A stretch of DNA of 64,000 nt. Source: Maricaulis sp. (GTDB lineage: Bacteria > Pseudomonadota > Alphaproteobacteria > Caulobacterales > Maricaulaceae). Numbering within the stretch: the first letter of the stretch is position 1; every line of letters begins with the position of its first letter. The position numbers and the translations under genes are program-made. This document shows positions 1,273-20,156 of the stretch, one piece after another. Where the stretch lies: assembly GCF_017643475.1 (NCBI RefSeq), contig NZ_JAEPNI010000001.1, positions 124,001 through 188,000 of the forward strand, read 5' to 3'. The notes beneath the pieces were generated by a model. The model did no database searches and was not told the DNA's origin. It was given only the letters and a program-made list of their open reading frames with translations.

Positions 1273-3795
<2,523 letters not shown>

Positions 3796-17211: not shown

Positions 17212-17661
17212 ATGAACACTGTCGACGTACGCATCAAGCCGCTGGAAAACTATGAAGGCCTGGAGCTTCCGGTCTATGAGACCGCGCAATCAGCCGGCAT
17301 GGATCTGCGCGCCGCAGTGGCGGAGGACGTCGCTATCCCGCCCGGTGAATGGCGGTTGATCCCGGTGGGTATCGCCATCGCCCTGCCCGCCGGTTTTGAA
17401 GCCCAGGTCCGCCCGCGCTCCGGCCTGGCGGCAAAACACGGCATTTCCTGCGTGAATACGCCCGGCACGATCGACGCGGATTATCGCGGCGAGATCAAGG
17501 TCAATCTGATCAATCACGGCAAGGTCGAATTCAACGTCAAGCGCGGCGACCGCATCGCACAGATGATCGTCGCCCCGGTCACCCAGGCGGTTTGGCAGGT
17601 TGCTGAAACCCTGGATGAGACCGAGCGTGGCTCGGGTGGTTTCGGGTCCACAGGCGTGTAG
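17212..17661 (+). CDS. dut: dUTP diphosphatase
   Basis: Dut hydrolyses dUTP to dUMP, protecting DNA from uracil. The 149-residue homotrimer type shows all five motifs: [17 protein letters not shown], the Tyr loop [27 protein letters not shown], and the terminal [10 protein letters not shown] arm. ATG 17212 has a GAGGGAG about eight bases upstream. The final 107 bases (17555-17661) are repeated, with changes, at 18203-18300 beyond the next gene. Confidence 0.96.
17555..17661 (+). repeat. Left copy of dut 3' end repeat
   Basis: The last 107 bases of dut recur at 18203-18300. The copies differ by one 9-base in-frame deletion (CCGGTCACC missing in the right copy) and six third-position substitutions that are all synonymous. 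The two flank a DUF4279 gene. See the pseudogene at 18203. Confidence 0.9.
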
Positions 17662-17760
17662 GGAACAGCCCGAGCGGCCGAGGACCATCGTCGTCATTCT
17701 CGGCGGCTGCGCCGAGCGTTGTCTCTCGACGGCATTGTTCGAGGAGCAGGATAACCCCAA

Positions 17761-18168
17761 ATGTCTCAGTCCGCAGCTTCACTTCACGTGATCGGCAATG
17801 ATCTCGACCCTGAAGAAGTCACCCGCTTGCTCGGGGTAGATCCAACATCTGCAGAAGCGAAGGGCGATCGCGTCGAAATGCCCTCGGGCAAGCTGAGGAT
17901 CGCCAAAACGGGTCATTGGCGCTTCAAGATAGATCGGCGATCTCCGGCGGATCTGGATGGGCAGATATCCGAGTTGTTTTCGGTGACAAGTCAGGATCTC
18001 GATGACTGGACAACACTGAGAAAACGTTTCGTCATCCGAGTCTTTTGTGGACTTATGATGTCAGATTGTAACGAAGGACTTCCTCTGACCGCCCTCACGA
18101 TCCAAGCCCTGGCCGAACGCGGAGCAGAGATCGACTTCGACCTGTATGCCCCCGACACTGAGAGCTAA
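17761..18168 (+). CDS. DUF4279 domain protein
   Basis: The 135-residue product resembles DUF4279: N-terminal strand SLHVIGNDLDPEEVTRLLGVDP and the later GHWRFKID pattern. The family's function is unknown, and it is often found in scattered, mobile contexts. A GGAGCAGGATAACCCCAA leader precedes ATG 17761. It is the only gene between two copies of the dut 3' end, and its coding sequence looks lower in GC than its neighbours. It may have been acquired with the right-hand dut fragment. Confidence 0.7.
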   Translation: MSQSAASLHVIGNDLDPEEVTRLLGVDPTSAEAKGDRVEMPSGKLRIAKTGHWRFKIDRRSPADLDGQISELFSVTSQDLDDWTTLRKRFVIRVFCGLMMSDCNEGLPLTALTIQALAERGAEIDFDLYAPDTES

Positions 18169-18202
18169 GCCGTGAGCTGCTCCACGCCGCTTCCAAAGAA
18201 AG

Positions 18203-18300
18203 TCGCACAGATGATCGTCGCCCAGGCCGTCTGGCAGGTTGCTGAAACCCTGGACGAGACCGAACGTGGTTCGGGAGGTTTCGGGTCCACAGGCGTGTAG
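18203..18300 (+). pseudogene. Second dut 3' end, 5'-truncated
   Basis: This 98-base segment encodes the last 32 residues of dUTPase and the stop, without three residues (Pro-Val-Thr) of the true gene. All six base differences from the real dut are synonymous (A, V, D, E, G, G codons), so it was under purifying selection as part of a functional dut before being stranded here. It lies in the same reading frame as the DUF4279 gene but beyond that gene's TAA stop. No start or upstream dut sequence is present. Confidence 0.8.
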
Positions 18301-18320
18301 ACCCGAAATCCTGAATCTGC

Positions 18321-18818
18321 CTAGCGCTCTGCGCGACAGGTGCCCTGATAATTATATCCGGCGATGGTGCCGTCTGGGTCCAGTGCAATGCGGGTTGTAC
18401 AGACTTCCGCGCCGCGCGATCGCGTCGCCGTTATGCCATTGCCGGTATTGGTAGAACCACCAACCGGAGCCCGGGTCGATCCGCTGCCGCTGGATGCCCC
18501 GCCGCTCGGCGGTGTGCCGGAACTCTGGCTGGTTGCCGGAACGACCGTTGCATTGTCGCTTTCATAGGCAAAGGAGCCGCTCGCACTGCCATCCACGTCG
18601 TCCGAGGCCGTTCCAGCGCCGTTGCGATCATCAGAGCGCGACTGGAAGGTCCAGATCTCGCCACCGCCCTCACGCAGGCTCCGCTGCGACGGCATGCCCA
18701 GCATGCTCACCGCCGCGCGATAATCCTGTCCGACAAGTGTATCCAACTGAGTGTCATAGGCCGGATTGCTCCCAGCCTGAGCGGTCGACGCCAACAGCGC
18801 CGCTGTAAGTCCCAGCAT
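18321..18818 (-). CDS. Secreted protein with Ser/Gly/Thr-rich linker, unknown function
   Basis: I do not recognise a family. The 165 residues begin with a short signal peptide (MLGLTAALLASTAQA). A folded-looking region (about 20-60; DTLVGQDYRAAVSMLGMPSQ) resembles the small SmpA/BamE-like sequence pattern only loosely. A low-complexity Ser/Gly/Thr stretch follows (about 75-120), and then a C-terminal segment with two cysteines, CTTRIALDPDG and YQGTCRAER, which could form one disulfide. GAGGA upstream of ATG 18818 supports the start. It is close to the dut fragment but on the opposite strand. Confidence 0.7.
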   Translation of the reverse strand: MLGLTAALLASTAQAGSNPAYDTQLDTLVGQDYRAAVSMLGMPSQRSLREGGGEIWTFQSRSDDRNGAGTASDDVDGSASGSFAYESDNATVVPATSQSSGTPPSGGASSGSGSTRAPVGGSTNTGNGITATRSRGAEVCTTRIALDPDGTIAGYNYQGTCRAER

Positions 18819-19019: not shown

Positions 19020-20156
19020 ATGATGACCAGCACACTCAGACAATCCGTTCATCGCCTTTCGATTGGCCTGGCCAGCGCAGCCTGCCTGCTCGCGGCGCCC
19101 GCCGCCTGGGCCCAGACCTCCAATGACGCGACGCTCGCTGCACTGGCGGAGGATACGCGTGACAGCTGGGGCAGCCCGGCTGTCGGATTGATGCAATTGC
19201 GCGAAGGAGAGGTCCATATCGGTGTCGCAGGACTGCGTGATGTCAGCGACACGGCGGAGGTCTCCACGGACGATCTCTGGCACCTCGGTTCAAACACCAA
19301 GTCGATGACGGCGACCCTTGTTGCCCGTCTGGCTGAGAGTGGTGTGATCAGCTGGGACGACACGGTCAGCCAGCATCTCGGCGAACATCTGGAGCTCATT
19401 GATCCGGGGTTTCACGACGTCACCTTCCGGCACCTGCTGAGCCATCATTCCGGGGCGCCGGCCAATATCGGCCAAGCCTATATGATGATGTTCGCGCTGG
19501 AGCGTGAGGGCGGTCGCCCGCTTCCGGAACAACGGCTGAGTTATGCGGGTCATATCCTGGCCCTGCCGCCTGAAAGCGAGCCGGGTTCGACCTATCTCTA
19601 TTCCAACGCCGGCTATGTCATCGCTGGCGCCATGCTCGAACAGGCGACGGGGGAAGCCTGGGAAGTCCTCATCGAACGCGAAGTCATGACCCCGCTGGGC
19701 ATTGATGATTTCGGATTTGGTGCGCCGGGCTCCACGGAAGTGATCGATCAACCACGCGGCCATCTCGATGGTTCACATGGCAATCCGGCGGCCATGTCCG
19801 GCCCGACCGCCGACAATCCGCCAGTGCTTGGCCCGGCCGGTACCATGCACATGTCACTGCCCGACTACGCGCTCTACCTCCAGGCCCATATCGATGGCGG
19901 CCGCGGGGTCGAGACAGGTTTCCTGAGCCAGGAAAGCTGGGACATCCTCCACACAAGGCCGTTCGAAGCCGGTTATGCGATGGGCTGGGGTCTGGGCTCT
20001 GACGAACTCCAGCACTCCGGCTCCAACAGGATGTGGCTGATGCATACGGTGATTGTGCCGGAACAACAGATGGGCGCGGTCATCGCCATGAACCGCATGC
20101 GCACGGGAAACGCCGGCGCACTCCTGCGGGAAATCGCGACAACAGCGCGGGACTAA
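19020..20156 (+). CDS. Secreted serine hydrolase, class C beta-lactamase fold
   Basis: The 378-residue protein has a signal peptide (residues 1-31, ending AAWAQ) followed by a beta-lactamase-related domain. The catalytic SxxK is GSNTKSM, the YxN motif is YLYSNAGYV, and the HSG motif is LQHSGSNR. The family includes esterases, D-aminopeptidases and penicillin-binding proteins; substrate is not predictable, and it is not evidence of antibiotic resistance. GAGGA seven bases before ATG 19020 supports the start. Its TAA overlaps the stop of the convergent helicase by two bases. Confidence 0.87.
   Translation: MMTSTLRQSVHRLSIGLASAACLLAAPAAWAQTSNDATLAALAEDTRDSWGSPAVGLMQLREGEVHIGVAGLRDVSDTAEVSTDDLWHLGSNTKSMTATLVARLAESGVISWDDTVSQHLGEHLELIDPGFHDVTFRHLLSHHSGAPANIGQAYMMMFALEREGGRPLPEQRLSYAGHILALPPESEPGSTYLYSNAGYVIAGAMLEQATGEAWEVLIEREVMTPLGIDDFGFGAPGSTEVIDQPRGHLDGSHGNPAAMSGPTADNPPVLGPAGTMHMSLPDYALYLQAHIDGGRGVETGFLSQESWDILHTRPFEAGYAMGWGLGSDELQHSGSNRMWLMHTVIVPEQQMGAVIAMNRMRTGNAGALLREIATTARD

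Follow-up and report, generated by a model that had tools for sequence, protein, structure and literature searches.

Insertion with long target duplication has been described in Helicobacter pylori for restriction-modification genes (Nobusato et al. 2000, cited in PMC1643837). Homology-facilitated illegitimate recombination joins one end of a DNA by homology and the other illegitimately (PMC3240628); it has been applied to the type VI secretion system (T6SS) immunity arrays of Vibrio cholerae and proposed as the source of displaced effector ends and orphan immunity genes (PMC5361080). Recombination hotspots without mobile elements, with turnover via the flanking core genes, have been reported from a study of 80 species (Oliveira et al. 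2017, PMC5635113). The locus described here lies in a 64,000-nucleotide (nt) stretch of contig NZ_JAEPNI010000001.1 of Maricaulis sp. (the window, whose positions serve as coordinates), where a DUF4279 gene stands between two 3' ends of dut, the dUTPase gene, that differ by synonymous changes and one in-frame gap. It represents a variant of the three kinds of event, and is probably the scar of an additive recombination with DNA of a related lineage, with one homologous and one illegitimate end.

The last 107 nt of dut (17555-17661) align to 18203-18300 with one 9-nt gap, equal to three codons, and six mismatches, all of which are synonymous third-position changes (GCG/GCC, GTT/GTC, GAT/GAC, GAG/GAA, GGC/GGT and GGT/GGA). 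The homology begins within a codon and ends precisely at the TAG stop, and an E-value of about 1e-31 excludes a match by chance. Both the boundaries of the repeat and its differences had been given by the first-pass annotation, and alignment and codon-by-codon comparison bear them out to the base. For a right tip drifting neutrally next to a dut under constraint, six of six synonymous changes would have a P of 0.005-0.008 in a simple binomial model, the range depending on the transition bias assumed; the annotation was thus right to disfavour a decaying tandem duplicate. Because of this probability, and because a cysK-type gene tip nearby did decay, the two dut tips most likely diverged as parts of functioning dut genes in different lineages. 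The features of the locus are as follows.

17212..17661, + strand: intact dut (dUTPase, 149 amino acids; PF00692, E 1.9e-35), whose 3' end at 17555-17661 is the left copy
17681..17746, + strand: remnant of a cysK-type gene, the last 22 codons (tblastn to residues 295-316 in locus L002; 73% amino acid identity to genome G010)
17761..18168, + strand: DUF4279 gene, 135 amino acids (PF14106, E 8.9e-20; guanine-plus-cytosine (GC) content 54%)
18169..18202, no strand: spacer of 34 nt
18203..18300, + strand: right copy, the dut 3' tip up to TAG, with the 9-nt in-frame gap and the six synonymous differences
18271..18314, + strand: hairpin made up of right-tip dut sequence and the next 14 nt, without a T-run (fold z -4.1)
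18321..18818, - strand: secreted-protein gene, 165 amino acids, without a Pfam match; its homologues in genome G018 lie 3' of the cysK end
19020..20156, + strand: next neighbour, a beta-lactamase-fold protein (PF00144), whose gene in G010 comes after cysK (L058)

The order is hence dut, cysK tip, DUF4279, spacer, dut tip, secreted-protein gene (reverse) and beta-lactamase-like gene. The homology of the right tip to the left copy opens abruptly at 18203, the junction to the spacer, and the unit between the dut ends contains a single gene, identified as DUF4279 as the annotation had said. A search of the genome with dut returned one full gene and the right tip only; the right copy therefore does not belong to an intact second dut, a possibility raised beforehand. 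Among the 19 genomes of the genus, 18 gave a dut match and only this one carries a second, partial dut; bases 1-1,240,000 of contig C7 hold the dut-tip sequence nowhere beyond the two copies.

The gene that comes next after dut is an intact one of 316-317 amino acids in 16 of the 18 loci found in the genus. In G010 it belongs to PF00291, the pyridoxal-phosphate enzyme family that includes cysteine synthases, and we take it to be cysK. The two loci lacking it intact are the present one and that of G015 (L018). The sequence after the dut stop in G015 resembles that following the cysK stop in G007, and cysK was apparently removed there from stop codon to stop codon. In the Maricaulis sp. genome the only matches to the CysK of G010 are 38% and 36% identical, and since each has its own counterpart in G010, the orthologue is gone. 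Only its tip persists, behind the left dut stop and 5' of DUF4279, the body of the gene being absent; in blastn, 17683-17745 matches G018 and 17690-17745 matches G010. This tip has lost its stop codon, and three residues that are invariant in all 17 intact tails compared are altered in it. The right dut tip is followed by the secreted-protein gene and not by cysK. Because its homologues in G018, whose contig starts inside cysK, come after the cysK end, the secreted-protein gene is part of the older region downstream. With a cysK tip left of DUF4279 and the rest of cysK lost, the locus is not a clean insertion at the end of dut. The interpretation of the annotation stands in part: DNA of a relative is a better account than a decaying duplicate, with cross-species exchange seen elsewhere in the genome (below), and an integrative unit that targets and repairs the 3' end of dut is not supported.

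The closest described systems can now be compared. The dut locus resembles the H. pylori case in that a directly repeated stretch of a neighbour flanks an accessory gene, and relatives lacking the insert have this stretch only once. However, the differences between the two dut ends are all synonymous here, the neighbouring cysK has gone, and the cargo is of the immunity type and not restriction-modification. Long target duplication leaves the target region otherwise unchanged on both sides, and here the body of cysK is missing. With homology-facilitated illegitimate recombination the dut locus would share one homologous and one illegitimate end, the abrupt junction at 18203 being the candidate for the latter, and the segment attributed to a donor has diverged in the manner of a working allele, with six of six changes synonymous. 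Unlike in the V. cholerae T6SS arrays, a housekeeping gene would be the anchor, and neither a toxin gene nor a secretion gene is seen adjacent to it.

A parallel footprint is found at uvrD (PF00580) in genome G188 (L072), where a DUF4279 gene starts right at the uvrD stop and is followed by a uvrD 3' tip and then by the next gene. The repeat has 154 nt at 91% identity, and 12 of the 13 codon changes in its coding tip of 144 nt are synonymous (P 8e-5 to 6e-4). The second uvrD tip occurs only in G188 within its genus, in which 28 of 29 genomes gave a uvrD match. Over 13 relatives the raw correlation with the gene body is r 0.50 for the left tip and r -0.01 for the right, as if the right end had come from another lineage. 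The 3' side of uvrD is a variable site in this genus, as judged from 16 relatives. Eight genes on this side were scanned, giving DUF4145, Abi_alpha, SEC-C and HIRAN, one HNH match below the cut-off and three unnamed genes, with no recombinase among the eight.

A related footprint of another form is found at a comM-type gene (PF01078) in genome G480 (L083), where the promoter and the first 96 nt of the gene are doubled around DUF4279 and one more open reading frame (ORF). The promoter copies differ at 13 of 80 positions and the coding copies at 1 of 96 (Fisher 3e-4). In genome G607 (L167), a serine recombinase element that includes a DNA methylase gene interrupts comM, within about a codon of where the truncated comM copy of G480 stops; this coincidence makes an integrase a plausible starting point for the comM case. 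In genome G826 (L168), an HNH-domain gene is inserted in comM, further inside than the G607 element.

The Maricaulis sp. genome itself holds a second case, around a gene of another kind. Direct repeats with copies up to 6 kilobases (kb) apart were scanned in 1.24 of its 3.26 megabases (Mb), and of the 33 pairs the dut and grpE pairs were the two left after sorting. Twenty-four pairs were rejected as lying within one open frame of 4,050 codons (377,967-390,116) and one as lying within a frame of 952 codons at 662-664 kb; five were paralogues, repeated domains or motifs (at 595, 635, 751, 1,096 and 1,209 kb), and one was a dispersed repeat at 1,144 kb with seven matching pieces. This 173-nt dispersed repeat (seven pieces in 1.24 Mb) flanks an ankyrin-repeat ORF of 175 amino acids at G000:C7:1144565-1145644. 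At grpE (G000:C7:212109-214049), a 63-nt 3' flank that looks as though it includes the grpE terminator is doubled at 98% identity around one ORF of 587 amino acids, with a GC content of 54% and no Pfam family. G010 shares the insert, with two identical copies of the 63 nt (100%). The insert is absent in G009 and G003, where the next gene lies within about 100-170 nt of grpE; in G011 the gap after grpE is about 940 nt. Both the uvrD 3' side in the genus of G188 and the grpE case fit the hotspots without mobile elements of Oliveira et al. (2017). However, the model given there, of double homologous crossovers, by itself leaves no duplicated gene end.

The genome is moreover a mosaic with respect to G010. 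In a comparison by one-kb pieces (420 pieces, of which 287 aligned over at least 800 nt), 41 of the 287 were at least 94% identical and 201 were at 73-88%, with a median of 83% and islands of 94-99%. Against contig C11 of G010, kilobase tracts of the window alternate between about 70-88% and 94-99% (for example, 2001-3000 at 99.4%). Among ten islands of at least 94% that also align to G003, four fall below 80% there, so that conservation alone is not enough to account for them. The simplest explanation is recent exchange between these lineages, and the mosaic points to cross-species homologous exchange. The dut region is only at the baseline identity of 84%; the lineage of G010 itself is therefore not the recent source of its alleles.

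Taken with the six synonymous changes, the footprints at uvrD and comM, the grpE insertion and this mosaic are the reasons for which additive recombination is judged the probable origin of the locus. DNA of a related strain or species would have entered the cell, one of its ends would have recombined by homology with the dut region of the chromosome, and the other would have been joined illegitimately at the junction 18203, leaving two allelic dut 3' ends, native and incoming, on the flanks of DUF4279. In one form of this course, the incoming strand would have brought the end of dut together with DUF4279, and the right tip would be native. In the other, it would have started inside dut and brought the right tip with what follows. 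At uvrD the latter form is slightly favoured, because there only the left tip tracks the gene body. The roles of donor and recipient, the order of events and the route of entry, be it transformation, transduction or conjugation, are what we infer within this account.

Several observations weigh against additive recombination. Both dut tips are about equally distant from G010 (left 0.775, right 0.762), hence neither end is singled out as native; tip-versus-body identity gave no signal of polarity at dut among the relatives compared, and these relatives did not tell which end is ancestral, as the annotation had hoped. The empty site that it had proposed to look for was not found either: DUF4279 is missing from all 17 dut loci elsewhere in the genus, yet in none of them does the secreted-protein gene follow dut directly. 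Nor was a donor found among the relatives compared, none of which is conspecific. The polarity signal at uvrD comes from 144 sites and 13 relatives only. CysK is lost on both sides of the insert, which is not explained by a single step and requires at least one further deletion. None of G009, G003 and G011 matches the 63-nt grpE unit, so that its single-copy state is not seen. The 94-99% islands are on average also more conserved to G003, at 80.2% (n=10) against 73.3% for 49 other pieces. Of the 32 other DUF4279 loci surveyed in Pseudomonadota (below), 29 lack such repeats. Finally, additive recombination does not foresee the hairpin at the end of the right dut tip (-24.5 kcal/mol, with 0 of 200 shuffles equally good), to which nothing comparable corresponds at the left tip (z -0.6); this hairpin could act as a terminator or have arisen as a fold-back scar.

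The best surviving alternative is an insertion with long target duplication, in which a one-step insert would have copied about 100 nt of dut to both of its sides and ordinary homologous recombination would later have swapped one flank for the allele of a relative. The grpE insertion of the same genome, with its near-identical flanks and its relatives without the insert, is what such an event would give, and the mosaic genome would make a later exchange of a flank easy. Yet two steps are required, and cysK would be expected still to lie 3' of the right tip, so that this course is unlikely. There is also a slim chance that the dut and uvrD tips are not by-products but built-in homology arms of travelling units without an integrase. 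RecA could then use the duplicated tip to bring the cargo to that core gene in any related strain, and single orphan immunity or defence genes would be that cargo.

The first-pass annotation had favoured an integrative unit that inserts at, and repairs, the 3' end of dut; as weighed here, its integrase would since have been lost. The exact stop of the dut-tip homology at the stop codon is in keeping with such a replacement end, as is the nearness of the comM truncation to the serine recombinase element of G607. However, no recombinase was found among the six neighbouring proteins profile-scanned at the dut locus, which agrees with the annotation's own remark that no integrase is visible. The unit includes the cysK tip, the right dut tip is not followed by cysK, and the 3' neighbour of dut is the same in 16 of the 18 loci. 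For the dut-DUF4279 unit, the matches in the plasmid collection (20 records) and in the phage collection (four Erwinia phage records, 41-56 nt) were confined to the dut sequence. An integrase-driven unit is thus improbable at dut. A tandem duplication within one chromosome, with the right copy decaying, would need no donor and would suit the 9-nt gap, which falls on the right copy; with none of the six changes nonsynonymous, and with the neighbouring cysK tip altered at kept residues and deprived of its stop, it is very improbable. An assembly artefact, conceivable in a single draft genome of nine contigs, has next to no likelihood, as the locus is interior to a contig of 1.48 Mb and its DUF4279 gene and cysK tip copy neither flank.

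The DUF4279 protein of the window scores 71.5 bits against a PF14106 cut-off of 25 and is the sole family match in its genome; its gene is lower in GC content than the window (61%). The predicted structure is a good model (predicted local distance difference test (pLDDT) 87), for which no solved structural relative was found, and PADLOC gave no hit. Members of the family have been proposed as putative immunity proteins (PMC13304343). The window gene belongs to the same Pfam family but has no adjacent toxin gene, its neighbours being dut, the cysK tip, the secreted-protein gene and the beta-lactamase-like gene. Protection against a toxin is its putative role. The family is rare: it occurs in 17 of the 398 genomes sampled from the order, in 6 of 385 from the class and in 14 of 398 from the phylum, these samples overlapping.

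To see how far doubled ends accompany the family, 33 Pseudomonadota loci were surveyed (17 from the order, 5 new in the class and 11 new in the phylum), four of which score under the Pfam cut-off (L051, L086, L134, L135), for direct repeats on the two sides of the gene, with minima of 80 nt and 80% identity, in flanks of 3 kb or 1.5 kb, with a short flank in L059, L066, L085 and L130. Besides the present locus, such repeats were found at three of 32: those at uvrD and comM, and L073, whose repeat could not be assigned to the end of a neighbouring gene. An ORF beside DUF4279 in L073 looked like a toxin end and was dropped, as Pfam gives no match. With 29 loci devoid of repeats, a general tie of DUF4279 to doubled gene ends is rejected; the pattern recurs but is no rule for the family. 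Likewise, the search for DUF4279 beside other dut 3' ends, advised by the annotation, came back empty, with dut in none of the 16 other order loci tested over stretches of 3.4-13 kb. As controls, repeats were found at 6 of 241 mechanical ORFs, which include the remaining DUF4279 ORFs of the same loci (three of the six being DUF4279 genes and three other ORFs), and at none of 30 SMI1/KNR4 genes taken from 95 places listed, four with a short flank; L148 (274 nt at 74%), L162 (32 nt) and L166 (40 nt) fell under the criterion. As raw counts only, the excess around DUF4279 is suggestive.

Outside Pseudomonadota, four of nine named loci (eight Bacillota, one Campylobacteraceae) have repeats of at least 80 nt, with no housekeeping-gene end among the four as far as read. 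In L027, L028, L030, L031, L032 and L033 (Paenibacillus, Saccharibacillus), DUF4279 is among single ORFs with repeats of about 100 nt (TAACATAATATTCACG...CGTGAATACAGGAACGTTA), of which each 10-kb locus holds two to seven matching pieces, some partial; they resemble integron attC sites and are absent from L029, L034 and L035. At L067 (580-1857), a 146-nt repeat at 85% lies on either side of two ORFs.

Movement of single genes without an integrase is known but seldom documented, and such entry has so far been mostly inferred from population patterns. What this locus adds is that doubled ends are tested for synonymous-only divergence, a test repeated at an independent gene; the argument from synonymous ends was not found in the literature searched, a search that left most subscription papers outside. 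A doubled core-gene end whose copies differ at synonymous sites only is a readable scar that can be searched for in any genome, and it suggests that one flank arrived as the working allele of another lineage. Its recurrence around DUF4279 at dut, at uvrD and, in another form, at comM, together with the grpE case around another gene, makes the process testable.
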